Shown: in pieces, positions 8,937 to 37,542 of the stretch
How positions within the stretch are numbered: the first letter of the stretch is position 1
How the letters are laid out: every line of letters starts with the position of its first letter
Source of the DNA: an uncultured Litoreibacter sp.
Lineage (GTDB): Bacteria; Pseudomonadota; Alphaproteobacteria; Rhodobacterales; Rhodobacteraceae
Assembly: GCF_947501785.1 (NCBI RefSeq)
Contig: NZ_CANMXB010000001.1
Location: 372,001-436,000 of the forward strand
Direction: 5' to 3'
Length of the DNA stretch: 64,000 nt
Translations under genes and position numbers: made by a program
The notes under the pieces: generated by a model
What the model saw: only the letters and a program-made list of their open reading frames with translations
What the model was told of the DNA's origin: nothing
The model's database searches: none

Positions 8937-9875
8937 ATGTCCGACAGAACAATTCCTCGTCTTCTACAGACCCCGGCGGTCCTGCTGCTCTTGGTCTGGA
9001 TGTTGGTTCCGCTCAGCATGACGCTGTATTTCTCGTTCATCCGCTACGTGCTGAATAACTTGCGCAGGCCGGAATGGACCAAGCCTTTGCCCAGCAACTG
9101 GCGCGGCTTTGGGAATTACGAGTTCGTTCTGAACTCCAAGGATTTCTGGTTCGCCGTACAAAATAGCCTCTTCATTGTCGGCGGTATCCTGTTTCTCACG
9201 GTCACATTGGGCATTCTGATCGCCGTCCTCATCAATAAGTCCTTCCCGGGGCAGGGGATTGTGCGGGTCTTGCTGATCTCCCCCTTCTTTGTGATGCCCG
9301 CCGTGAACGCTGTGTTGTGGATCAACATGATCCTTGATCCGGTGCTGGGGCTTCAGGGCGTTGCCGTGGGCGGTATCAACGAGATGATTGCAGGCCTGCG
9401 GGGCGCACCGATAATCGGGGGCTTCTTCTCGCTGTGGCCCGAGTTCGAACCGATATCTTTCCGAGCGACGCAGACCTCATCATATGCCGTGATCATGATG
9501 GTCACCTGGCAGTGGACGCCCTTTGCGGTGCTGATCTTCATGACGTCGCTGCAATCTGAGGATCAGCAGCAAAAAGAAGCGGCCATTCTGGATGGCGCAA
9601 GCGCTTGGTCGCAATTCCGGTTCCTGACCTTGCCGCATCTGGGCCGATCCATCGCGATTGTCGTGATGATCCAGGCCATCTTCCATCTATCGCTATACGC
9701 GGAGATCGAGATTGTAAGCCGTGGCAACGGCAACAAGAACCTGCCGTATCTGATTGGCGAATTCGCCAATAACAACATTGGCGCGGCCAGTGCCACTGGC
9801 ATCTTCGCCGTCATTCTCGCCAACATTGTCGCGATCTTCCTGCTGCGGATCGTCGGCAAGACACTCATGGAATAG
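8937..9875 (+). CDS. smoF: Polyol ABC transporter permease (SmoF-like)
   Basis: This 312-residue inner-membrane protein has about six hydrophobic segments. It carries the MalF-type EAA loop (QQKEAAILDGASAWSQFRFLTLPHL, about residues 209-233), where the ATPase docks. It is one half of the heterodimeric permease pore. It follows smoE after a 146-base gap with a stem-loop and precedes smoG by 11 bases. The ATG at 8937 gives the expected length, though its ribosome site (AAGGG) is rather far upstream. Confidence 0.9.
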   Translation: MSDRTIPRLLQTPAVLLLLVWMLVPLSMTLYFSFIRYVLNNLRRPEWTKPLPSNWRGFGNYEFVLNSKDFWFAVQNSLFIVGGILFLTVTLGILIAVLINKSFPGQGIVRVLLISPFFVMPAVNAVLWINMILDPVLGLQGVAVGGINEMIAGLRGAPIIGGFFSLWPEFEPISFRATQTSSYAVIMMVTWQWTPFAVLIFMTSLQSEDQQQKEAAILDGASAWSQFRFLTLPHLGRSIAIVVMIQAIFHLSLYAEIEIVSRGNGNKNLPYLIGEFANNNIGAASATGIFAVILANIVAIFLLRIVGKTLME

Positions 9876-9886
9876 AGGACATCATC

Positions 9887-10723
9887 ATGGCAATTGTCGC
9901 GGAATCCTCAAAATTCAAAACCTACGCTCGCCCCGTTTTGGCGTGGATCGTTGGGCTGATCTTCTTCTTTCCGATCTTCTGGATGGTCTTGACCAGTTTC
10001 AAGACGGACGCCGACGCGGTGAAGCCGGAATATCTGATCTTCTTCACGCCGACGCTGGAGAACTACCTCAACATGACCGAGAATTACGACTACTGGCGGT
10101 TCGCCACGAACTCGGTCATCACATCGGTCTTTGCCACGATATTCGCGCTTTTCGTCGGTATTCCATCGGCTTACGCCATGGCCTTTAACCCCACGCGGCG
10201 GACCAAAGACATCCTGATGTGGATGTTGTCGACCAAGATGTTGCCTGCAGCGGCAGTGCTCTATCCGATGACCTTCCTGACCAAGAACCTGTTGGGGGTG
10301 TTCGACACCCATTTCCTGCTGATCCTGGTCCTGTGCCTCATCAACCTGCCTATCGCGATCTGGATGCTGTTCACCTACTTCAAAGAAATCCCCAAGGAGA
10401 TCATCGAGGCGGGCAAGATGGATGGGGTCAACACATGGGGCGAGATCAAGGAAATCCTGATACCGCTGGCATGGGGCGGCATCGCATCCACTGCGTTGCT
10501 GACCTTCATTTTCTGCTGGAACGAAGCCTACTGGACTGTGCGCCTGACGACGACGGACGCGGCAACATTGTCCAAGTTGATCGAAGGCAACCGCGCCCCT
10601 GAGGGGCTATTCTTCGGGCGCCTTTCGGCGGTCTCTACGGCAGCTGTTGGACCTATCGTGGTGCTCGGCTGGTTCTGTCAAAAACAACTGGTCCAGGGCC
10701 TCACCTTCGGCGCCGTGAAGTAA
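9887..10723 (+). CDS. smoG: Polyol ABC transporter permease (SmoG-like)
   Basis: The 278-residue MalG-type permease has six predicted membrane segments. Its EAA motif ([27 protein letters not shown]) sits at about residues 169-195. It forms the transmembrane channel with SmoF. The start codon has a GAGGA ribosome site 7 bases upstream, and the gene is only 11 bases after smoF, consistent with one transcript. Confidence 0.9.
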
Positions 10724-10734
10724 GGAATAGGGAT

Positions 10735-11739
10735 ATGGGACGCATTCAACTTAAGCAGGTTCAGAAAAAATTCGGCGATACGGAAGTTATTCCTCCGCTG
10801 GATCTCGAGATTGAAGACGGCGAGTTTGTTGTCTTTGTCGGCCCGTCGGGCTGCGGCAAGTCAACCTTGCTGCGACTGATCGCGGGTCTCGAGGACACCA
10901 CATCCGGCGCGATTGAAATTGACGGTGAAGACGCCACGCAGGTGCCACCGTCGAAACGGGGGCTGGCGATGGTGTTCCAGTCCTACGCGCTTTACCCGCA
11001 CATGACCGTTCGCAAGAACATCGCCTTCCCTTTGCGGATGGCCAAAATGAGCGAAGAAGAGCAGAACAAGCGCGTGGCTTCCGCGGCGGCTTCGTTGAAC
11101 CTGACCGACTACCTGGACCGCAAGCCGGGGCAGTTATCCGGCGGGCAACGCCAACGGGTTGCCATCGGCCGCGCCATTGTCCGCGAGCCGGCGGCATTTC
11201 TGTTTGATGAACCTTTGTCCAACCTTGACGCGGCCTTGCGGGTTGGCATGCGCATGGAAATTGGCGAACTGCATAACAAACTGAAAACCACCATGGTCTA
11301 CGTGACGCATGACCAAGTCGAAGCCATGACCATGGCCGACAAGATCGTTGTGTTGCAGGCAGGCGTGATTGAACAGGTTGGCAGCCCGCTGGATCTGTAC
11401 CGCACACCGCGTAACCTCTTTGTGGCGGGCTTTATTGGCAGCCCCACGATGAATTTCATCGAGGGACCGGAGGCCGACAAGTTGGGCGCGAAGACAATTG
11501 GCATTCGGCCAGAACATGTCGCCGTGTCCACCACCAAAGGCCAGTGGCAGGGCACCGTTGGCGTCGCCGAGCGGCTGGGGTCGGACACATTTATCCATGT
11601 TCACGGCATCGCAGGCTGTGATCCGTTCACCGTGCGCGCCGGTGGCGACATTGACGTCAAGCATGGGGACACGGTTTTCCTGACACCTGACGCCGCCCAA
11701 ATCCACAAATTCGGCCCCGATGGGTTGCGGATGTCATGA
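10735..11739 (+). CDS. smoK: Polyol ABC transporter ATP-binding protein (SmoK-like)
   Basis: A 334-residue ATPase of the MalK/UgpC group that powers the SmoFG permease from the cytoplasmic side. It shows Walker [10 protein letters not shown] (36-44), the Q-loop region [13 protein letters not shown], signature [15 protein letters not shown] and Walker [12 protein letters not shown], then a C-terminal OB-fold (TOBE) regulatory region (IGIRPEHV onward). An AAGGAA ribosome site precedes the ATG. Its stop overlaps the start of the dehydrogenase gene by 4 bases, directly linking transport to catabolism. Confidence 0.93.
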
Positions 11740-12500
11740 CGGCGCTTGCTGGCAAAGTTGCACTGGTGACGGGCGGGGGGCGCGGCATTGGCCGCGCGAT
11801 TTGCGAGGCCATGGCCCAGGCCGGCGCCAAGGTGGCTGTTGCCGACCTGAACGAAGCCGATGCGATCGAAACCGCAGAGGCGATTGGCGGCATGGCTGTC
11901 GTGATGAATGTCGCGCATTTTGAAGATGCCGCGCGCTGCGTCGCGCAGGTCGAGGACGCATTGGGCGGGGTTGATATCCTCGTCAACAACGCCGGTATCT
12001 TCAACATGGCTTCGATAGACAAGGTGACCCCCGAAGACTACCGCCGCCAGTATGACGTCAATGTCGGCGGCACGATCTTTGCCTGCCAAGCCGTTGTTCC
12101 GGCTATGAAAAGGCGCGGCAGCGGGTCGATCATCAACTTCTCGTCCCAAGCCGGCCGTAGGGGTGAACCCAACATTTCCATCTATTGCTCCACCAAGGCC
12201 GCGGTGATTTCCGTGACCCAGTCATTGGCGCTGGAGTTGGCGAGTGACAACATCCGCGTCAATGCCGTGGCCCCCGGGGTGATCGACACGCCAATGTGGG
12301 ACAGCGTGGACGCGCAGTTTGCGGAATATGAAAACAAACCAAAGGGCAAAAAAAAGCGTGAGGTCGGCGAGGCCGTGCCATTGGGACGCATGGGGGATCC
12401 GCGTGACGTGGCTGACCCTTGCGTGTTCCTCGCTTCGGATGCGGCGCGCTACATCACGGCGCAAACCCTTAACGTCGATGGCGGCAATTGGATGAGCTGA
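11736..12500 (+). CDS. smoS: Sorbitol (L-iditol 2-)dehydrogenase, SDR family
   Basis: This 254-residue short-chain dehydrogenase has the cofactor motif TGGGRGIG (12-19), NNAG (about 84-87), a catalytic Ser near 137 and YxxxK at 150-154. The C-terminal half ([26 protein letters not shown] and the ending NVDGGNWMS) closely recalls the SmoS sorbitol dehydrogenase of Rhodobacter as I remember it. It would oxidise D-sorbitol to D-fructose with NAD+, and perhaps galactitol or L-iditol. It overlaps smoK by 4 bases and mtlK by 1 base, so it is translationally coupled within the operon. Confidence 0.85.
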
Positions 12501-13981
12501 TGCTGAACACACTGCAGAAACTCTCGAATGCGATGCTGGGCGATTTGCCCAAGGGCGTGCGCGGTCCCGTCTACGACCGCATGGCGATCACACCCGGGAT
12601 TGTACATATCGGTTTGGGCAATTTTCACCGCGCCCATCAGGCCTGGTACCTGCATCGCCTGATGCAGCAGGGAGAGGCGTTGGACTGGGGCATTATCGGC
12701 GCCGGGGTGCGGGCTCCGGATGAGGCGCAGCGGCAAAGGCTTGAGGCCCAGGATTACCTGACGACCCTGATCGAACTGGACCCGGCGGGCCAATCGGCCG
12801 AAATCATTGGATCGATGATCGGATTTGTCCCCGTCGAGGATAACAACGCCGCCCTGATCGCCCAGATGGCAGACCCCGCGATACGGATCGTGTCACTGAC
12901 GGTGACCGAGGGGGGGTACTACATTGATCCGGTCACGCAGGCCTTTGACGTGGCACATGCCGACATTCAGCACGACGCGGCGCGGCCAGATAGCCCGCGC
13001 ACCGCTTTTGGCGCAATGATTGCGGCGCTGAAGATACGGCGGGCGAAAGGGACCGGCCCGTTTACGGCGCAAAGCTGCGACAACTTGCAGGGCAATGGTT
13101 CTATCCTGCGCCAAACGCTGGTCTCGCTGGCCCGGCTGTCCGATCCCGATCTGGCGGAATGGATAGACGACAACTGCGCATTCCCTGACTCCATGGTCGA
13201 TTGCATTGTTCCCGCAACGGGGCCAAAGGAGCTGAAGCTTGTGGAAAGCATTGGCATTGCAGACGCCGCGCCGGTTACCCATGAAAACTTCCGCCAATGG
13301 GTCATCGAGGATGATTTCTGCGCAGGTCGCCCTGATTGGAACAAGGTCGGCGCGACCTTCACGGAGGATGTGCATCCCTTTGAGGCAATGAAAATTCGTA
13401 TCCTGAACGGCGGCCACCAGTTGATCGCAGATGCGGGGGAGGTCCTCTCGGTGGAAACGATCTCGGACTGTATGGAGCATCCGTTGATTGGCGACTTTTT
13501 CCGCAAGGTGGCCAAGACCGAAATCGCCGATCAGGTTGACGCCGTTCCGGGCATGACGCCGGATGCCTACGCTGATCTGGTTGATCAAAGATTTTCCAAC
13601 CCGGAGATCATCGACACGGTGCGCCGCGTGGCCTTCGACGGCTCGTCTCGGCAGACTGGATTCATCCTGCCTACTTTGCGGGATGCATTGGCGAAGGGCG
13701 ACCCTGTGGAGGGGCTTATTCTGTCCCAGGCCATCTGGGCGCGGATGTGCGCCGGGACCCGCGAGGACGGATCAACCATAGCGCCAAACGACCCAATCTG
13801 GGACAAACTCACCCTTGCTGCCAGCTTGGCCAAGTCTGATCCGCAAGCATGGCTTGAGCAGCGGGAACTCTATGGCGATCTGGCAGAGAATTCGGTGTTC
13901 CAGGATCGGTTCAACCATTGGCTGTCGCAGATTTGGTCAATCGGGCTTGAGGCGACGCTGCGCGCGTATCTTGACGGATGA
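12500..13981 (+). CDS. mtlK: Mannitol 2-dehydrogenase
   Basis: From the ATG at 12500, which overlaps the smoS stop (TGATG), this is a 493-residue polyol-specific long-chain dehydrogenase. Near the start, VHIGLGNFHRAHQAWYL is the Rossmann-type NAD-binding segment. The catalytic region of the family appears as KIRILNGGHQLIADAG, with the conserved Lys, Asn and His. It oxidises D-mannitol to D-fructose in the cytoplasm. It is the last gene of the polyol operon and is followed by a bidirectional terminator. No fructokinase or xylulokinase is attached here, unlike the Rhodobacter smo operon, where xylB is nearby; xylB lies about 31 kb away. Confidence 0.92.
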   Translation: MLNTLQKLSNAMLGDLPKGVRGPVYDRMAITPGIVHIGLGNFHRAHQAWYLHRLMQQGEALDWGIIGAGVRAPDEAQRQRLEAQDYLTTLIELDPAGQSAEIIGSMIGFVPVEDNNAALIAQMADPAIRIVSLTVTEGGYYIDPVTQAFDVAHADIQHDAARPDSPRTAFGAMIAALKIRRAKGTGPFTAQSCDNLQGNGSILRQTLVSLARLSDPDLAEWIDDNCAFPDSMVDCIVPATGPKELKLVESIGIADAAPVTHENFRQWVIEDDFCAGRPDWNKVGATFTEDVHPFEAMKIRILNGGHQLIADAGEVLSVETISDCMEHPLIGDFFRKVAKTEIADQVDAVPGMTPDAYADLVDQRFSNPEIIDTVRRVAFDGSSRQTGFILPTLRDALAKGDPVEGLILSQAIWARMCAGTREDGSTIAPNDPIWDKLTLAASLAKSDPQAWLEQRELYGDLAENSVFQDRFNHWLSQIWSIGLEATLRAYLDG

Positions 13982-14049: not shown

Positions 14050-15771
14050 TCACAGGTTCAGATATGCATCCCTGAGATCCTTGGGACTGGTCGCCGGCAA
14101 TTTGCCCTTCGATAGCAACATGGCAATCTCTCGCGTGACTTGCGGGCAGGCGACGCTGGTGCCATCCAGGGCCTGCCGGCTTCCTGACAACGAACCCATG
14201 CAGACCATGCCCGGCAACTCGGGGCTGCGGTCCGAGGGCGCAACCTTGTCGCCCTCCAGCGGTCTGCCCTGATCAGGCCGGCCCAAACTGGAATAGGGGG
14301 CAGGGGGCTGATCGGCATTGTCATAGCTGCCGCCAACCCTGATCTGAAGCCCGCCATTGGCAAAGGCATTGACCGAGCCGGTGCGCTGCACGCCCGTTGC
14401 CGTTCCGGGAGGATCATGCAATATCTTTCGGCCGGTTTCGTCATAGACCCGATATGCATCGTCGCGGAGATTGGACTGCCGCCCGCCGCCGCCAAAGCCA
14501 CGCACGGCGTCATCGCGCTGGACATATGTATGCACCAACCCTCGATCCGCCGTGTCGACTGATACCTGCCAGGTCCCGGCGCTGATATAGGGCGCACCGA
14601 CCTCTTGAGGGACTGTGGGCGGCACAACCAAGGTGATCAGTTCTCTCCCGCCTGCGTCAGAGGGGTGCCATTGCAGATAGGCCCGGCCAACCTCCTGTCC
14701 GTCGATTTGAAGAACCTGATAACTGCCGTGGCTTTCGAAATCGGTCCGTTCCGGGCGGGGGGCATTGGGGAGATCCACCACTAGCTGCATCGGGTCCTTT
14801 GGCTGCGCGTCCAGATGCGAGCCCCAGAATTCAACAAAGCTGGGAGTCGGGTCGTCTGGTTGCAGCTGCCATCCCAAGGTGGCGTCTGTGCCGGGATCAA
14901 GGACCCCGTGCAGCTGATTGAGCCGCTGGTTGCCCATCGGCAGCACAAAGGTCACCGGCCCGATATCCGTGCCGGTTTGGGCGGAGACCGCGTCCATGAA
15001 TGCCTCGATCGCACCGGAGCCGTCTTTGGGACCGGCGCTCAGCCCATAGCTGAGGTTGATCACCAACGGCAGTTTGACAGACCCTTCCGCCAGCTTTTGC
15101 TTCTTCTCCAGCCAACGGCAGAGCCTGCGGGTGCGATGCACCAGATGCAGGACGCCCATGATGATGTAGATGGGGGAGAATGTGCCGAGGGTATCGCGGG
15201 TCACCTCTGGCGGCAGGCTGACGGCCATCACAGGAAAGTTGGGCGCGTCTTTGTCGTCAGGCTCAAATCCGGCGGCAAGATCGACCACGCCCGAGCCGTG
15301 GTTTGCAGAAAAAGCGCCGCTTTGAATGCTGCCGCGGCCGAAGTCTATTGCGCCTGTCGCGCGATAGAGGCTGTCTTCATCTGGCAATTCGGACGTGTTC
15401 AACTTGCCCAGGAGGTTCGAAATCTGCGCGCCGCGCAGCTCTCGCCCGAAGGGGAGGTCCGCCCCGACGCTGCCGGGTGGCGACGGGTCCGTTGCAGCCC
15501 CTTGCATCCAGATAGAAGCGACGCGCGCGGTTTTGCCCTTCAGGGTCAGCCGTTGATGCGCGAATGGCATGGCGTCATCAATCACGCCAATCACCACCGC
15601 TTTGCCGAGCTTCTTTGGAATGGCGTCATCGCTGAGATATGCGAACTCATCAGTGGACTCGGACGTCGGGTCATAGGCTTTGGGGGCGAGGTTCAGCGTG
15701 TCGCTGACCGCGATCCCGTCCAGATGTTTCAGCATATCGCCAAACGCACCTGCCATGGATCTGGCGCTCAT
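14050..15771 (-). CDS. Subtilisin-like (S8) serine peptidase without signal peptide
   Basis: This 573-residue protein contains a complete subtilase triad: Asp 65 (VIGVIDDAMPFAH), His 158 (NHGSGVVDLAAG) and Ser 539 (DGTSVACP), with the likely oxyanion Asn at 281 (LPMGNQ). There is no N-terminal signal peptide or hydrophobic segment, so it is predicted to be cytoplasmic or exported by a non-Sec route, which is unusual for S8 enzymes. A long insert of roughly 150-200 residues sits between the oxyanion Asn and the Ser motif. It starts with ATGA overlap to the 68-residue Cys-finger gene and is the last gene of a three-gene operon. The substrate is unknown. Neighbours suggest activity on, or processing of, the partner proteins. 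Confidence 0.8.
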   Translation of the reverse strand: MSARSMAGAFGDMLKHLDGIAVSDTLNLAPKAYDPTSESTDEFAYLSDDAIPKKLGKAVVIGVIDDAMPFAHQRLTLKGKTARVASIWMQGAATDPSPPGSVGADLPFGRELRGAQISNLLGKLNTSELPDEDSLYRATGAIDFGRGSIQSGAFSANHGSGVVDLAAGFEPDDKDAPNFPVMAVSLPPEVTRDTLGTFSPIYIIMGVLHLVHRTRRLCRWLEKKQKLAEGSVKLPLVINLSYGLSAGPKDGSGAIEAFMDAVSAQTGTDIGPVTFVLPMGNQRLNQLHGVLDPGTDATLGWQLQPDDPTPSFVEFWGSHLDAQPKDPMQLVVDLPNAPRPERTDFESHGSYQVLQIDGQEVGRAYLQWHPSDAGGRELITLVVPPTVPQEVGAPYISAGTWQVSVDTADRGLVHTYVQRDDAVRGFGGGGRQSNLRDDAYRVYDETGRKILHDPPGTATGVQRTGSVNAFANGGLQIRVGGSYDNADQPPAPYSSLGRPDQGRPLEGDKVAPSDRSPELPGMVCMGSLSGSRQALDGTSVACPQVTREIAMLLSKGKLPATSPKDLRDAYLNL

Positions 15772-15974
15772 CGTTTGAACGCCCGTTCCACAAGCTCATC
15801 CACATTGGTGCTCAGGGCCGTTGTGACCTCGATCAGGCATTTGCGGCTGACCTCATGTCCGCAGGCGGGGCAAGTCCCCTCCTGATCATCGAGCCAGTAA
15901 TGCGCATAGGGCGACGTGTCATTGTCAAAGCTCTTACGGTCAGCGGGGGCGGGGTCTTTCCAACTCACGTCCAT
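15768..15974 (-). CDS. Small Cys/His-finger protein of unknown function
   Basis: The ATG at 15974 gives 68 residues; an in-frame GTG 12 bases earlier (15986) is possible. The only recognisable motif is CPACGHEVSRKC (about residues 34-45): a CxxC knuckle, a His and a further Cys. That could bind one zinc ion alone or on dimerisation. The rest is acidic and hydrophilic with a helical C-terminus. The gene overlaps the stop of the PAP2/haloperoxidase gene by about 10 bases and the subtilase start by 4 bases, so all three proteins are probably made together. I do not recognise a family. It may be an adaptor, inhibitor or substrate for the subtilase. Confidence 0.65.
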   Translation of the reverse strand: MDVSWKDPAPADRKSFDNDTSPYAHYWLDDQEGTCPACGHEVSRKCLIEVTTALSTNVDELVERAFKR

Positions 15975-17197
15975 CTGCTGTCCCACTCTTTGACGGCGCC
16001 GTCCCAGATGTTTTGCAGCATAGGGGCAGGGGTGACAGTGATAGGTTTCAGCTCGGCGACGCTTTTGTCGTTGCCGCCCATCAACTTGTGCAGCTCGCCA
16101 AAATGGAAGTCGCGTGTGTTTTTGCCGTCATGGTAGTCATGGCCCCCAAAGCTACGTGGGGTGACGGTCTGCGCCCCGTCGCGTGCGCGCGACGCCAGGT
16201 ATTGGCCCAAAGTGATGCCAAGAACAGCGCCCGCGGCGCTGTCAGATGGGAAGTGCACGCCCGCGACTGTCCGGTTCGCCGCAATGCGCGCTGCCATCCG
16301 GTAGTATTGGCTTTCCGGGTCGATCTCAGCAGGGCTTGTGTCGCCCGCCGCCAGCTCGGTCATCAGCGTCGCCACCAGGAAAGATTGCGTCGAGTGCCCG
16401 CTGGGGAAGGTGGCATGATCCGGCGTCTGGATCATTGGCTGCAGCCGGTCTGAAAACGCCACTGGGCGCGGGCAGCCCAAGGTCAGCTTCATTTCCATTG
16501 CGACAACGGAGGCAAGATAAATGCCGGTGAACAGCAATTCCATCGTCGCCGACGACCGGTTGGGGTGTAGCTGTGATATCGCCCCGAAGTAGGACATGAT
16601 GTCGTCCAGTTGGGTGTGAATTTCCGGCAAGCGGTCGCCGCGCAACTCGGCGTAGTTGGCCACCATCGAAAGATCCCGTTTGAAGTCATCATCCGACGGG
16701 CGCGACAGCCCCACCAGCCTTGAGAAGGTAATCTCAAAGTCATCCTTCTTCTTTTTGGACTTCGTGGCGCAATATAGGGTTGAGGACGCCAAATCGCCCT
16801 TAGGCCAGTCCGGGTCTTTGACGAATTTCAGATCATTGAGAAGTTCGGACGCCATAACGGCGCGTTTGTGGTCCCCGGTCAGTCGGGCATAACGCTCGAA
16901 CTTGGAGAGCGGTGTGAACGAACCGCCGATGCCAGCAATTGTCTCTGTCCCGATGATGCCTTCGCGGGCGCGCGACAGGGCTGTCGACAAGAGGGGTGAG
17001 GCAAAGCTGCCGGCATGGCTGCTTCCGGTATTGCCTGTGTTACCGGTGTTTCCCGTATTCCCAGTATTGCCCGTGTTACCGGTGTTTCCCGTATTTCCGG
17101 TGTTACCGGTGTTACCGGTGTTACCGGTGTTACCCGTATTGCCTGTGTTACCCGTATTGCCTGTGTTGCCGGTATTCCCGGTGTTAAAAAACGACAC
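15965..17197 (-). CDS. PAP2 / vanadium-haloperoxidase-like protein with N-terminal Asn-Thr-Gly repeats
   Basis: I chose the GTG at 17197, which has a GGGGGA ribosome site 6 bases upstream, giving about 410 residues; a longer TTG-started frame (17290) lacks such a site. Immediately after VSFF come 18 consecutive NTG tripeptides, then a linker. The rest is an acid-phosphatase/vanadium-haloperoxidase fold with all three motifs: K-x6-RP (KLTLGCPRP), PSGH (FPSGHSTQ) and R-x5-H-x3-D (RTVAGVHFPSD). Such enzymes either hydrolyse phosphate esters or, with vanadate, oxidise halides. Which applies cannot be read from the motifs. No classical signal peptide precedes the repeats. First gene of the operon with the Cys-finger protein and subtilase; divergent from the large regulator. 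Confidence 0.78.
   Translation of the reverse strand: MSFFNTGNTGNTGNTGNTGNTGNTGNTGNTGNTGNTGNTGNTGNTGNTGNTGNTGNTGSSHAGSFASPLLSTALSRAREGIIGTETIAGIGGSFTPLSKFERYARLTGDHKRAVMASELLNDLKFVKDPDWPKGDLASSTLYCATKSKKKKDDFEITFSRLVGLSRPSDDDFKRDLSMVANYAELRGDRLPEIHTQLDDIMSYFGAISQLHPNRSSATMELLFTGIYLASVVAMEMKLTLGCPRPVAFSDRLQPMIQTPDHATFPSGHSTQSFLVATLMTELAAGDTSPAEIDPESQYYRMAARIAANRTVAGVHFPSDSAAGAVLGITLGQYLASRARDGAQTVTPRSFGGHDYHDGKNTRDFHFGELHKLMGGNDKSVAELKPITVTPAPMLQNIWDGAVKEWDSRWT
17024..17185 (-). repeat. Eighteen tandem 9-bp repeats encoding (Asn-Thr-Gly)18
   Basis: On the plus strand 18 units of the form NCC(G/C/A/T)GT(A/G)TT follow without interruption (162 bases). Units vary at synonymous positions (AAC/AAT, ACC/ACA/ACG/ACT, GGT/GGC/GGG/GGA) while the tripeptide NTG stays constant. 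The variation shows selection on the protein rather than very recent slippage, yet the 9-bp period makes copy-number change likely. Confidence 0.95.
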
Positions 17198-17238
17198 TTT
17201 TCGTCCCCCACTTAAAATTACTTTATAAGTCAATTTGT

Positions 17239-17249
17239 CGGTATTACCG
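17239..17249. promoter_or_regulatory. Palindrome in the divergent intergenic region of the haloperoxidase/subtilase locus
   Basis: CGGTATTACCG is an 11-bp perfect palindrome (odd centre) in the 155-base, AT-rich space between the PAP2 operon (minus) and the winged-helix regulator (plus). It could be the regulator's binding site. There is no second copy nearby to support this. Confidence 0.3.
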
Positions 17250-17352
17250 TCAATGCCGCGAGCGTAGCGCTGTTTTGGAAAACAAATCAATCGTGGATGT
17301 AGAGTGCACGGTACGGGCCATTTGCCCTGTTTTGTGATATATTGGGACTATT

Positions 17353-18924
17353 ATGGCCAAAATTACACTTGATCTGGTCGGTCCCGTTACGGTCAGGGGA
17401 CCTGACGGCGCGGATTTGACCCCGGGCAGTATGAAAGCGCGTGGTTTGCTGGCGTCGCTCGGAACGTCGCGCCATATGCGGATGAACCGCTCGAAGCTGC
17501 AAGACCGCTTGTGGAGCGCCAGCCCGCCAGAACAAGGCGGCAACAGCCTGCGTCAATGTTTGACTGAAATTCGGCGCTCCTTCGGCATACATCGTGATGC
17601 GTTGCAGTCATCCGGGGGGCTTGCCTGGCTCGACCCCGATCTGATTGACGTTGTGTTACGCCCGGTCGAGGCCGACCAAATCGGCGCCAGCGAGTTTGCC
17701 GAAGATCTTGATATCCGGGACCCGGAATTTGAGGACTGGCTGCGGCAGGCGCGGCTGCAATTTACCAGCCAGCAGACATCGGCGCCGCCAAATCTCGGCT
17801 CTGAGATTGTGTTGGACGATGTCCCTGTGCCCGTCTTCATCATCGCGCCAACGGCAACGGGGCGCCCCGAGCTGGACGCGATGAGCGACATGGTGGTGCG
17901 CGACGGCGCGCAGCAGGCCGCGGAGTTTTTGTCGGCACTGATATATGATGAAGCACAATACACGGGGACAACCCAACAAGCGCTGCGCCTGTCGTGCAAG
18001 GCGATAGGTTTTGGCGATGTGCTTTCCATGCAGGTGGATGTCAGCCACCTGGCGACGGGGCGCCAAATTTGGGGAAGAAGCATCAACATTGATGCCAGCG
18101 ACGCAGTCGATCAGCGGCAGAAACTGTCAGCAGAACTGACTTTGGCGCTGTTGAATTACGAATTCGGGGCAGGGGGAGCCCATGAGGACCGCGCCTCACT
18201 GCGCGACATCTTCTCATTCGAGCCGGACCGGTTGTTCCGCGCCGAACGCGCATTGCGCATCGACGAGGGCGACCCGCGTAGCCGGGCCACCCGGCTGGCC
18301 CTCCGCGCGTTTGTACACAACACCATCTATTTCGAACGTTTGACCGATGACGGGCAAAGCCTTCTGGATGAAGCGACCGCGTTTTGCCGCGAGGCTTACG
18401 ATCTGGAGCCGCAAAATTCAGTGGTTCTGGCGGTTAGCTCTCTTCTCGCATTTAGAACAAAGCAGTTGGAGCTGGCCTTTGACCTTGCCACCCAAGCGGT
18501 ACGAGCCAACCCTGCAAACCCACTGAGCCGCTACAGCATGGCGAGCGCCTATACCGGCAATGGAGAGCATGAAACCGCTTTTCAGGAAGCAAAACTTGCA
18601 TTGTCCAGCCCGCTCACCGCGCTCAACCCCGCAATCTGGCTTATGGGATGTTCTGTTTCCGCCGTCCGCGCCGACCGACTGGAAGAGGCGCTGCGATATG
18701 CCACGACAGCGCATGGCTATGCGCCAGAGTTCCGACCAGCGCTGCGCGCCATGGCGGCATTGCATTTTAGAAACGGTGATGAGGAGGCGACTGTGAGAGC
18801 CTTAACCCGTCTGCAGCAGCTCGAACCCGATTTTTCGCTAAAACTGATGGCGACCGATTCGTACCCTGTACCCTCTCTCCGGGCCGCTGGACTGCTCCAA
18901 GTGACCACATCAGGGCTGATTTGA
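17353..18924 (+). CDS. Winged-helix (SARP/BTAD-like) regulator with TPR-like C-terminal half
   Basis: The 523-residue protein begins with an OmpR/SARP-type winged-helix region (about 1-100: LDLVGPVTVRGPDG, KARGLLASLG, RSKLQDRLW, NSLRQCLTEIRRSFG). Such domains bind direct DNA repeats. A middle section (about 155-270, VPVFIIAPTATG through LATGRQIWGRSIN) resembles the TolB-like or cyclase-associated region found between wHTH and TPR domains. The C-terminal half is rich in paired helices with Ala at regular spacing (AYDLEPQNSVVLAVSSLLAF, LATQAVRANPANPLSRYSMASAYTGNGEHETA), that is, TPR-like. It is divergent from the PAP2-finger-subtilase operon and most likely controls it. The signal sensed is unknown. 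No transmembrane segment was seen. Confidence 0.78.
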   Translation: MAKITLDLVGPVTVRGPDGADLTPGSMKARGLLASLGTSRHMRMNRSKLQDRLWSASPPEQGGNSLRQCLTEIRRSFGIHRDALQSSGGLAWLDPDLIDVVLRPVEADQIGASEFAEDLDIRDPEFEDWLRQARLQFTSQQTSAPPNLGSEIVLDDVPVPVFIIAPTATGRPELDAMSDMVVRDGAQQAAEFLSALIYDEAQYTGTTQQALRLSCKAIGFGDVLSMQVDVSHLATGRQIWGRSINIDASDAVDQRQKLSAELTLALLNYEFGAGGAHEDRASLRDIFSFEPDRLFRAERALRIDEGDPRSRATRLALRAFVHNTIYFERLTDDGQSLLDEATAFCREAYDLEPQNSVVLAVSSLLAFRTKQLELAFDLATQAVRANPANPLSRYSMASAYTGNGEHETAFQEAKLALSSPLTALNPAIWLMGCSVSAVRADRLEEALRYATTAHGYAPEFRPALRAMAALHFRNGDEEATVRALTRLQQLEPDFSLKLMATDSYPVPSLRAAGLLQVTTSGLI

Positions 18925-34281: not shown

Positions 34282-37200
34282 ATGGATGCGATTGAGTTCG
34301 TAGTCCGCGGACAGGATGGCAACATCCGTCGCGGCGTTTTTCAAGACATTGATGGCCAATCTGCAATGAACGTCGGTGTGGGCGAGGATGTCTCGCTTAA
34401 CATTCGTCGGTATCAAGCAGTGGGCTACACGCGAGAGGGCAACACTTTGGTGGTTGCTCTTGCTGACGGCCGCAGCCTGCGGCTGAATGGATTTTTCGAG
34501 GGCAATAACGAGCTCTATATTTCGGCAGATGGTCAACTGACAGAGGTGGCCTTGTCCGAACATGCCGGTGGCATTGATGCTGTGTATCAAGAGGCGCAAG
34601 CCTTCGGTAAGTGGAGCCCGGACGACGCGCTGTTTTTCACAGGCGGGCCTGATGTCGACACGATCATTGCGGCAGATGCCGCAGCGGTGAACGAACAGCC
34701 GACGATGCTTGCAGCCCCAATTCTCGCTGGTCTAGGCGGTTTGGGTGGCGGCGGTCTTGCCGCAGGCGCCGCGCTTGTCGGTGTTGGCCTTGTTGGCACC
34801 GGCGGCGGTGGTGGAGGCGGCGGCGGAGGCGGCGGCCTTGGCGACACCACGCCCCCTGATGTGGCCGTGACTGAAGGCACCATCTCCGTAAATCACGTCT
34901 TCAATGGTGAAGACCATGGCGACGGTGTTGAGATTGCCGGTACGGGCGAGCCCGGCGCGGCAATTGTCGTGGTTATCGGCGATGCCGAGCAGGAAACGGT
35001 CGTCGCTGACGATGGGTCTTGGTCTGTCGTGTTCCCAACGGCGGATGTGGCCGGCGGTGAGCGCGATCAGGAAATTACGGTTACGGCGACGGACGCAACC
35101 GGCAACTACACGATGCTGACGGACACAATCCGGCTGGACACCATCACCACGGTTGAGCTGAGCGAGATTGATGGCGCTGTTGCATCCAGCAACACGGTGA
35201 TCAACGCCGAAGGTCATGCCAACGGCGTCACGATGAGCGGGGCTGGTGAGCCCGGCGCGTCAATCACAGTTGAAGTGGCTGGCGGGCCGTCAGCAACCAC
35301 GACAGTTGCGGATGATGGCACTTGGGCTATCAACTTTACGCCGGGCGAGATCGCGACTGGCGAATACGAGGCGGGCGTTACAGTCACCGCAATTGATCTG
35401 GCAGGCAATTCTGCAACCACAACGCAGACGATGGTTGTCGACACGATCAGCAATGTATCGATCACCGGTAATTCTGCAGGTGCGGATGGGGTGGTCAACT
35501 CTGTCGAGAACACCGCGGCAACGGCCATCGTGGGGGCGGCGCAGGCCGGATCCAGCGTGGTTGTAACGGTAACGGGACCAAATGGAAATGTGCTGGGTAC
35601 TCAAACAGTTACCGCAAATTCTTCAGGTGAATGGCAGGCCAGCTATGCGGCGGGCACCTTCCCGGGCGGCGAGTATGATGTCAGCATTACCGCTGTCGCA
35701 ACCGATGGCGCGGGTAACAGCTCTTCCACTTCGGCGACATTGCCGATCGACACCCTGACAAATGTTGAGCTATCCGCGATTGACGGCGATCTGGTGAATT
35801 CTGGCGCAGTCATCAACGCGGCGGAGCGGGCCGACGGCGTGTCCATGTCGGGCACTGGCGAGCCGGGCGGTGCGGTTGTCGTTACGGTTCCAGGCGGCGG
35901 CACGGCCACGACCACCGTTGGCAGCAACGGCCAGTGGTCTGTGAACTTCGCGGCGGGCGATATCCCGGCGGGCGAAACCACTGTCCCTGTAAGTGTCAGT
36001 ATCACCGATGCGGCGGGCAATACCGCCTCTTCAACCCAGAACATGGTCATCGATACCGTGACCACCGTTGATATCACTGGCAACAATGCTGGCACAGACG
36101 GTGTCTATAACAACACCGAGGCCGGGCGCACGGTCACGTTGAATGGCACCGCGCAACCAAATGCCTCTGTCGAGGTAACGCTGACCAGTGACACCGGCGC
36201 GTTCCTTGGAACCACAACGGTCGTTGCAAACGGTGCTGGGCAATGGGCGGCCAACTTCTCTGCGGGCAGTTTGCCTGGTGGTGAATACGGCGTGAATGTC
36301 TCTGCGCAAGCCACTGATGCAGCAGGAAATACCGCGACTGACACATCGACATTCCAGGTCGACACGGTTGCCGATATCTCTGTCAATGACGGCTCCCGCG
36401 ACGATGGCGGTGTCATCAATATTGTCGAGGCAGGCAACGGTGTGACCCTGACCGGCTCAACCGATCCGAACTCAGTTGTCAGCGTGAACTTTGCGGGCAG
36501 CATGCGGACGGTGCAATCCGATGGTTCAGGCAATTGGGCGGCGACGTTCTCGTCCTCCGATATCCCGATGGGTGTGGAGACGACCTTGCCAATCACCGCC
36601 AGCTTCACGGACGCAGCAGGCAATACTGCCACGGCGACCGGCACGGTCGGCGTAGACACGATCGTGCGCAATCTAGGTGTGTCAGCAGCGACCGGCGACG
36701 GCGTCATTGACGCGCAGGAGGCAGGCGCAGGCTTTACCCTGACCGGCACAACTGAGCAGGGCGCACAAAGCGTAACGGTCGCCTTCGGGTCAGGTCAGCC
36801 GCGCAATGCGGTTGTGGATGCGGCGGGCAACTGGTCGATCACATTCGCCCCGGGCGACATTCCCGAAGGGGAGTACGACACCGACATCACCGTTACGACG
36901 GTTGATATCAACGACAACGTCGACAGTGTCACCAGCCCGGTTCGTGTTGATACCGAGGTGCCAGAGGCGCCAATCGTCATTCGCTACGTCGAATCGACGA
37001 ACGGCATCAACGATGGCTTGCAAGGCATTTCCACGGAGCTGACGGACGACATCAGCGGCATCAGCCAGATCAACGCTGCTGGTCAAGTGTCCAACGTCGG
37101 CTACCAGTCGCAGACATCCGCGTTTGGCGGCGGTCGTTTGGACTTCGAGTTTGACAACACCATCCCGAACGGCGCGAGCCTGGTTATCCAGGCGGAAGAC

Positions 37201-37542
37201 TCTGTCGGCAACCAGAATGACACATTGCTTGTTCTGGAGGATGCGGGGACGAACACCGTGAACATTTCGTCTCCCGCGCTGGATCAGTTCGACATCGGCG
37301 CGATTGACCTCAGCATTGCGGAAGACAGCAGTCTCACCATCTCGGAAAGCGATCTTCTGGCTATGTCTGGCGTCAGCGACACATTGATTGTCCATGGCGG
37401 CACAGACGATGTGGTTAACGCGGCCGGTGCAACCTTTACCGGGGCGACCGAAGTGATCGGCAATCAGGTTTATAACGTCTACTCGCTTGGCGAGGGCAGC
37501 CTGATCATTGACAGCGAGATCACGGTCAACCCAGTCATCTAA
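34282..37542 (+). CDS. BapA-like Ig-repeat adhesin, probable type I secretion substrate
   Basis: The 1086-residue protein begins with a BapA/LapF-type prefix domain (about 1-125: MDAIEFVVRGQDGNIRRG, SLNIRRYQAVGYTREGNTLVVALADGRSLRLNGFF). An Ala/Gly segment ending in a run of 12 Gly (about 174-185) follows. Next come seven bacterial Ig-like domains of about 100 residues (roughly 190-890), each ending in a D.AGN......D(T/S) motif, and one diverged domain. The last 150 residues (LSIAEDSSLTISESDLLAMSGVSDTLIVHGGTDDVV...NVYSLGEGSLIIDSEI) look like the C-terminal uncleaved secretion region of such adhesins. No Sec signal peptide is present. The next three genes encode a type I secretion system. It is small for this class, which often exceeds 2000 residues. 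Confidence 0.85.
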   Translation: MDAIEFVVRGQDGNIRRGVFQDIDGQSAMNVGVGEDVSLNIRRYQAVGYTREGNTLVVALADGRSLRLNGFFEGNNELYISADGQLTEVALSEHAGGIDAVYQEAQAFGKWSPDDALFFTGGPDVDTIIAADAAAVNEQPTMLAAPILAGLGGLGGGGLAAGAALVGVGLVGTGGGGGGGGGGGGLGDTTPPDVAVTEGTISVNHVFNGEDHGDGVEIAGTGEPGAAIVVVIGDAEQETVVADDGSWSVVFPTADVAGGERDQEITVTATDATGNYTMLTDTIRLDTITTVELSEIDGAVASSNTVINAEGHANGVTMSGAGEPGASITVEVAGGPSATTTVADDGTWAINFTPGEIATGEYEAGVTVTAIDLAGNSATTTQTMVVDTISNVSITGNSAGADGVVNSVENTAATAIVGAAQAGSSVVVTVTGPNGNVLGTQTVTANSSGEWQASYAAGTFPGGEYDVSITAVATDGAGNSSSTSATLPIDTLTNVELSAIDGDLVNSGAVINAAERADGVSMSGTGEPGGAVVVTVPGGGTATTTVGSNGQWSVNFAAGDIPAGETTVPVSVSITDAAGNTASSTQNMVIDTVTTVDITGNNAGTDGVYNNTEAGRTVTLNGTAQPNASVEVTLTSDTGAFLGTTTVVANGAGQWAANFSAGSLPGGEYGVNVSAQATDAAGNTATDTSTFQVDTVADISVNDGSRDDGGVINIVEAGNGVTLTGSTDPNSVVSVNFAGSMRTVQSDGSGNWAATFSSSDIPMGVETTLPITASFTDAAGNTATATGTVGVDTIVRNLGVSAATGDGVIDAQEAGAGFTLTGTTEQGAQSVTVAFGSGQPRNAVVDAAGNWSITFAPGDIPEGEYDTDITVTTVDINDNVDSVTSPVRVDTEVPEAPIVIRYVESTNGINDGLQGISTELTDDISGISQINAAGQVSNVGYQSQTSAFGGGRLDFEFDNTIPNGASLVIQAEDSVGNQNDTLLVLEDAGTNTVNISSPALDQFDIGAIDLSIAEDSSLTISESDLLAMSGVSDTLIVHGGTDDVVNAAGATFTGATEVIGNQVYNVYSLGEGSLIIDSEITVNPVI

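Follow-up and report, generated by a model that had tools for sequence, protein, structure and literature searches.

A proteobacterial gene module of regulator, repeat-tailed PAP2-fold enzyme and peptidase of changing class

The locus and the conserved module

We analysed a 64,000-nt stretch of DNA from an uncultured Litoreibacter sp. (assembly GCF_947501785.1, contig NZ_CANMXB010000001.1, positions 372,001-436,000), hereafter called the window, and in particular a group of open reading frames (ORFs) coding for a PAP2/vanadium-haloperoxidase-like enzyme (PAP2), a subtilase of peptidase family S8 and a regulator (REG). The group represents one copy of a widespread proteobacterial module that consists of a sensor/regulator, a tailed PAP2-fold enzyme and a peptidase of exchangeable class. 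A preliminary description, made from the sequence alone, had listed three minus-strand ORFs overlapping end to start and one divergent plus-strand ORF. All four are present, and the overlaps amount to 10 nt between PAP2 and a small ORF (15965-15974) and 4 nt between the small ORF and the S8 gene (15768-15771). The features are, in window positions:

14050..15771, minus strand: S8 (subtilase) peptidase, 573 aa (Pfam PF00082)
15577-15579, 15298-15300 and 14155-14157, minus strand: codons of the S8 triad residues Asp65, His158 and Ser539
15768..15974, minus strand: small ORF, 68 aa, probably a split-off N-terminal S8 segment (clade-limited; aligned by hhalign to S8 N-termini)
15965..17197, minus strand: PAP2/vanadium-haloperoxidase-like enzyme, 410 aa, likely start GTG 17197 (Pfam PF01569)
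16202..16525, minus strand: catalytic core of PAP2 (Pfam-matched, residues 256-363 of the 441-aa ORF)
17024..17185, minus strand: N-terminal array of PAP2, (Asn-Thr-Gly)x18, perfect as protein and codon-scrambled as DNA
17198..17352: 155 bp separating the start of PAP2 from that of the divergent REG, presumably the control region
17353..18924, plus strand: REG, 523 aa, with winged-helix-like N-terminus, middle region and C-terminal TPR (sub-threshold TPR matches; weak AfsR-type match)

All stretches in this study were read with a mechanical ORF caller, with approximate start sites and gaps. For PAP2, GTG 17197 is the likelier start compared with TTG 17290, where the longest ORF begins, because GGGGGA lies upstream and the predicted product, MSFF(NTG)18, resembles MSFF(NAD)n of a related locus (L239).

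In searches for S8 relatives, 71 of the 295 family genomes gave a match, some matches being weak and from other S8 groups, as did 20 of 398 genomes of the phylum (with A1) and 38 plasmid records. Tail-free PAP2 cores (profiles A3 and A9) matched 96 of 295 family genomes in the core-only search and, with A9, 80 of 248 family and 10 of 337 class genomes; the S8 genome counts and the count of 96 include weak matches outside the module (e.g. L116, L117, L120; L341). We fetched 84 family neighbourhoods, six plus four plasmid loci and 20 loci found by searching the class and the phylum; the collections overlap and include near relatives such as three Rhizobium plasmids. Among S8 relatives scoring at least 300 bits, a line set after seeing two groups, 101 of 103 have PAP2 and 100 have both PAP2 and REG, a gene being counted wherever it lies in the fetched stretch, adjacent or not. 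Below 300 bits PAP2 was found in 2 of 13 cases and both partners in one. The exceptions among the 103 are an S8 gene alone (L072), a PAP2-bearing contig that ends before any REG (L085) and a locus whose pieces are compressed into one ORF (L045). This last ORF (L045:5898-7841), from a fragmented assembly, unites the N-terminus of REG with part of a PAP2 and with S8 in a single frame, either by deletion or as an assembly artefact. The genome of L072 carries PAP2 and REG on another contig (L224), possibly a dissociated system.

Starting from the PAP2 core gave a similar picture: all three genes occur at 78 of the best 80 of 452 loci in named genomes, one of the others lacking S8 and one REG. In genome contigs the PAP2-core profile yielded the 452 relatives, while the S8 protein alone yielded none. 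The 80 loci come from taxa that include Paracoccus, Salipiger, Ruegeria, Microvirga, Bradyrhizobium, Tardiphaga and Polaromonas; the plasmids that we read belong to Phaeobacter, Paracoccus, Rhizobium, Bosea, Roseibium, Microvirga, Caballeronia and Paraburkholderia. Two metagenome bins titled as other phyla were not relied on. The conservation of REG, PAP2 and S8 as a module is thus well supported; the preliminary description had proposed a system of four genes, to be refuted if their homologues are seldom neighbours, and this refutation fails for REG, PAP2 and S8, whereas the small ORF is clade-limited. The gene order is flexible. Of the 103 loci with PAP2, 46 have all three genes on the same strand, 33 have REG on the opposite strand and 21 have S8 convergent with PAP2, the remaining 3 being arranged otherwise or incomplete. 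In the 78 cases with PAP2 and S8 on a common strand, a median of 2.5 nt separates the two genes, and 34 of these pairs overlap.

The window PAP2 scores 53.1 bits with Pfam PF01569 (cut-off 27.2). The superfamily motifs KX6RP, PSGH and RX5HX3D are all present, as had been noted, and K268, R275, P296/S297/H299, R340, H346 and D350 are invariant in 19 aligned rows including the window; the Gly in PSGH falls just short of invariance. The folds nearest to its structural model are acid phosphatases (TMt 0.57-0.69), with vanadium haloperoxidases ranking lower. Class A acid phosphatases and vanadium haloperoxidases share the three motifs, whereas the module enzyme differs from both in its longer N-terminal region, its repeat tail and its linkage to REG and a peptidase.

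The S8 protein was assigned to its family by Pfam PF00082 (26.3 bits, cut-off 21.8). Its Asp-His-Ser triad is intact, with D65, H158 and S539 invariant in 20 rows; a second alignment (16 rows) again shows H158 and S539 as invariant, with D65 kept in at least 90%. Judged by eye, no signal peptide is evident. Both statements agree with the preliminary description. The S8 model (pLDDT 82.7) contains a strand-rich stretch at about residues 285-420, and the closest solved folds in the Protein Data Bank are CspB, CspA and CspC, subtilases of clostridial spore germination (Foldseek E 2.7e-20, TMq 0.55); the alignment to CspB spans 543 columns, with the region of the jellyroll insertion compared only as part of the whole. 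However, identity is 12-16%, the partner of the module S8 is a PAP2 protein, a long N-terminal region is missing in the window's clade, and the NCBIfam Csp models remain below cut-off (CspC 17.4 versus 675 bits, CspBA 15.5 versus 1250). CspB is reported to perform proteolysis in a signal pathway, to be kept inactive by a retained prodomain, which rescued its folding when supplied in trans, and to be required for activation of a cortex hydrolase (PMC3567191).

The small ORF had been described as a Cys/His finger and a possible adaptor. It yields nothing above cut-off in Pfam and is restricted to one clade; its CxxC (CPACGH) is the only one among 31 intergenic small ORFs, and no Cys or His ligands are conserved. 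We therefore rejected the zinc finger, and the adaptor role is not supported. With moderate confidence, the small ORF appears to be a detached N-terminal segment of S8, because it occurs where S8 is short (median 585 aa with and 701 aa without a small ORF) and its start, MxLxW...PY, resembles that of long S8 proteins; hhalign to S8 N-termini gave a probability of 71.6 over 25 columns. The argument is mixed, since a simple MxLxW pattern is found at the start of 0 of 31 S8 proteins with a small ORF but of only 44 of 150 without one. A precursor of a RiPP was also considered and dropped in view of the clade limit and the resemblance to S8.

REG gives sub-threshold TPR-type matches only in Pfam, and the AfsR model matches its N-terminus weakly (residues 4-91; 24.9 bits against a cut-off of 1430). 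A SARP would carry a BTAD after the winged helix; Pfam detects no BTAD in the window REG, although the REG of a second subtype has one (L234, 50.7 bits). The preliminary description had called it a SARP-like regulator of 523 residues. Seed profiles classified the N-termini of 187 distinct REG proteins as winged-helix-like in 142 cases, nucleotide-cyclase-like in 44 and neither in one, with six matching both. The constant part is the TPR-bearing C-terminus together with the middle region, which we take to be TolB/FlgO-like. The description as a divergent transcriptional regulator is only partly general, given the cyclase-like proteins and the loci with all three genes on one strand.

The repeat array of PAP2

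The window PAP2 opens with a perfect micro-repeat, (NTG)18, directly after MSFF, which the preliminary description did not mention. We found such an array in 190 of 196 distinct PAP2 relatives (duplicates removed by the last 200 residues), with 104 different units and a median length of 24.5 aa. The period is 3 in 161 arrays, 4 in 22, 2 in 6 and 5 in one. In the best 80 of 452 loci from named genomes the array is present 78 times. The membership profile behind the neighbourhood, array and control counts derives from complete ORFs with their tails.

Among the ORFs of the neighbourhoods, 150 of 155 PAP2 have such repeats within their first 260 aa, compared with 0 of 175 S8, 2 of 167 REG and 3 of 1490 other long ORFs. 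By position, at least three of these five non-PAP2 cases are antisense readings of PAP2 arrays: two of the other long ORFs (L172, L174) and one REG ORF whose start runs antisense across the array (L101). The third other ORF is a poly-Gly run in the window, in a long ORF at 34282-37542 that is not related to the module. As a control we collected 30 loci from 26 relatives by Pfam PAP2. Fourteen were group members, the window's own included, and all carried an array; ordinary PAP2 carried none (0 of 8 proteins from 9 loci), and 7 of the 30 loci had no readable ORF. Elsewhere in the window's genome a second NTG array that could serve as a partner was not found with an exact three-unit pattern, which occurs at one coding place only.

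Among the six proteins that were arrayless by the run test, two are cut by contig ends (L085, L298), one has a degenerate NTRSx repeat (L086) and one may have a wrong ORF start (L303); in L075 and L225 the array is simply absent. One array contains a run of N (L278). At eleven loci (L237, L238, L326, L328, L330-L335, L337) the array lies deeper in the read ORF, starting at about residue 54-130; its units contain Arg or Lys (NR, SR, NK, NRG), and the neighbour is another S8 subfamily.

Arrays are rich in Gly (38%) and Ala (14%), followed by N, S, H, Q, V and T, with 0.2% Pro and no Cys, and the array has a pLDDT below 50 in the AlphaFold model, as expected for disorder. The window array passes Pfam Collagen (33.7 versus 27.2 bits). 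However, Gly is absent from 29 of 90 array units and the periods range from 2 to 5, so that Gly at every third position is not a family property; we rejected a collagen-like tail and regard the likeness to prokaryotic collagen-like proteins as an accident of one unit. The same composition and disorder would suit a tail that drives homotypic self-assembly of PAP2 into a condensate, fibre or multimer, with the peptidase as a factor for disassembly or quality control. A uniform array would then provide like-with-like contacts, and a switch of the unit would prevent cross-assembly. Low-complexity units such as GAGS, GVG, NTG and NSY, which presumably resemble silk, elastin, collagen and prion-like repeats, speak for it, but charged or mixed units (AEN, EAV, WEN, GRS, NR) would share no common assembly chemistry, and some arrays have just three copies (9 aa). 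We consider self-assembly somewhat unlikely, though a serious contender.

At the DNA level successive units differ by 1576 synonymous versus 132 non-synonymous base differences (pS 0.91, pN 0.026), and most of the latter fall in arrays with Ser, Leu or Arg, whose codons occupy two boxes. In the window array the figures are 36 and 0. Synonymous saturation with almost no amino-acid change means that the arrays are old as DNA and are held at the protein level. Adjacent units share codons less often than in shuffles (1258 versus 1645 ± 26 of 4366), and units two apart more often (1569 versus 1417 ± 26 of 3778). The pattern is compatible with a process in which identical neighbours are lost by slippage or selected against and units are duplicated in pairs.

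It also bears on the explanation that the array is a slippage by-product on a tolerant N-terminus without function of its own. The sharing between units two apart is a trace of past duplication, and among Phaeobacter plasmids the copy number changes by whole 9-bp units. However, the near-universal array, the saturation under a conserved peptide and the deficit of shared codons between neighbours speak against such an origin, and only one of 190 arrays consists of DNA-identical units throughout. We disfavour a mere by-product as very improbable.

Between species the unit itself changes. While NSF is constant in 11 Phaeobacter plasmids (of 21; three species) with 5 to 7 copies, the Paracoccus loci that we read contain NAQ, NAH, NAK, NAR, HGE, HGQ, HAK, QGQ and QAH, and one is arrayless. 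In a PAP2 tree with unit comparison (selected rows, 36 of 80 loci), sisters carry different units, namely L246 (NAQ) and L251 (HGE) as well as L253 (HGE) and L259 (HGQ). The latter two are 94% identical over the last 310 residues, yet every array copy has changed, a wholesale switch of the unit. A further pair, L096 and L100 (= L317), one species each, reads NSQ(n)-ATE-NSQ and NHQ(n)-ATE-NHQ at the PAP2 N-terminus; here the lone copy behind ATE has switched along with the array.

Exchange of the peptidase

More distant PAP2 loci, which we refer to as the second subtype (n = 34), carry other peptidase partners. PAP2 is present in 33 of them; of these 33, 31 have an array, and 31 have a REG. The exceptions are L227, without PAP2 by that profile, and L225 and L341, without array; L341 encodes an exported PAP2 with neither array nor REG.

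Four kinds of partner were found. A papain-like protein is encoded at eight loci (L226, L228, L232, L233, L234, L236, L327, L329); the eight are united by their own profile and alignment, in which the Cys is kept in all and NS(W/Y/H)G in all but the truncated L236. Pfam C1 stays below cut-off in three of them (L228, L234, L327) and gives no match in three others (L232, L236, L329). Other S8 subfamilies occur at 15 loci, and all seven that were scanned pass the Pfam cut-off. At three loci the partner is of the glutamic A4/G1 type. L345 is firm (8.7e-21), and phmmer links both L343 (9e-22) and L344 (5e-11) to it. All three keep a Gln and a Glu, which we take to be catalytic. Finally, four loci (L336, L338, L339, L342) encode proteins of about 890-980 aa, convergent with PAP2, with a conserved HE[FM]GH and also HSxGDxxA; three of the four were scanned and gave no Pfam match. 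Judged by the HExxH motif alone, they could possibly be an undescribed metallopeptidase family.

One locus joins the partners in a single chain: L340:3985-6765 encodes 926 aa with a TH-repeat, PAP2 (PF01569, 28.9 bits) and S8 (PF00082, 52.2 bits). By eye this natural fusion of the module has a twin-arginine-like signal and is apparently exported.

The kind of peptidase goes along with the type of array. Papain-like partners stand beside period 4 in 8 of 8 cases, the same-strand second S8 subtype beside Arg/Lys units in 11 of 11 and the A4/G1 type beside TGN or TSN in 3 of 3. We do not count this link as evidence, since these groups look like clades.

Unrelated peptidases that are interchangeable beside a fixed core could also indicate a module for biological conflict, programmed death or kin recognition, in which peptidase and PAP2 would be harmful effectors and the tail an identity tag. 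The patchy distribution seen in the S8 searches of family and phylum genomes (weak matches outside the module included), the carriage on plasmids and the unit switching between sister species are consistent with it. However, the constant unit of the Phaeobacter plasmids speaks against identities that switch rapidly inside a genus. PADLOC families match none of PAP2, the small ORF and REG, and S8 matches only a generic subtilase model (20.7 bits); the neighbouring genes were not searched for defence systems. A conflict module seems improbable.

A possible coupling of proteolysis to the PAP2 tail

Tail, PAP2 and REG are retained when the type of peptidase changes, so that what the module constantly requires seems to be proteolysis of something within it. 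That one position can hold serine, cysteine, glutamic and probably metallo-type peptidases is an argument that the system needs proteolysis as such rather than a particular protease. The natural candidate for the target is the tail, which lies exposed beside the enzyme, is disordered and is under selection. As the best explanation of the whole, which we hold tentatively and at somewhat less than an even chance, the TPR-bearing sensor controls a peptidase that acts on the PAP2 tail or docks to it. REG, through a DNA-binding or nucleotide-cyclase-like N-terminus, would sense some condition and switch on the pair of PAP2 and peptidase. The peptidase would then act on PAP2 by limited proteolysis, or be docked by it, via the repeat tail, and this would release or localise the activity of PAP2 as the putative effector. 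The preliminary description had proposed a protease-controlled redox or phosphatase effector. A protease-controlled effector is still a good reading, strengthened by the exchange of proteases and the PAP2-S8 fusion.

Several observations weigh against this explanation. Units with periods of 2, 3, 4 and 5 make a single motif for cleavage or docking hard to picture, and the tail, often Gly-rich, might be a mere flexible tether. One S8 protein of the family stands in a stretch without PAP2 or REG (L072), and Pfam C1 passes its cut-off in only two of the eight papain-like proteins (L226, L233). Furthermore, co-divergence of S8 or REG with switched units was not seen in 17 pairs, 6 switched and 11 with the same unit, compared by whole-protein identity. 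In windows, applied to 4 of these pairs, no local divergence peak was found along the S8 of switched sisters, nor in REG once ORF starts were trimmed. The sole outlying REG of the six switched pairs is that of L252/L249 (NAR and NAQ units, one each), with 47% identity against 73% for PAP2 and 64% for S8.

A more specific form would treat the tail as a lineage-specific recognition code for which the partner peptidase, or else the TPR domain of REG, is the reader, in the manner of lock and key, with array unit and reader changing together and wholesale switching of the unit between sisters. We regard such a code as doubtful.

We found no description of the module in searches of an open-access library, most subscription papers lying outside that scope, and the data suggest an undescribed protease-controlled system. 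The nearest published phenomenon that we found was reported by Sieber et al. (2019, PMC6851277): in a gracilibacterium an array of PTD tripeptides shows repeated 9-mers, synonymous variation and an amino-acid repeat under stabilising selection; according to these authors the nucleotide variants suppress slippage. The PAP2 tail shares the 9-mer repeats, the synonymous variation and the conserved peptide. However, the accessible part of that source treats one population (and a co-occurring Colwellia protein) and names no PAP2, peptidase partner or unit switching across species. A Burkholderia PAP2 protein is tabulated in PMC10303873; in the accessible part of that paper we found no bearing on the module.

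An enzyme family with a near-universal perfect array that often differs by genus and is scrambled at the DNA level is unusual in itself, and the roughly 100 units form a natural series for asking what a low-complexity tail does. If the tail is indeed the target or dock of the peptidase, the module would represent a new coupling of proteolysis to an effector enzyme in bacteria.

As for the surroundings, ABC transporter and dehydrogenase-like genes occupy window positions 8937-13981 and end just upstream of the module. A Paracoccus plasmid copy (L031) likewise adjoins ABC permease and SDR genes, perhaps by chance.

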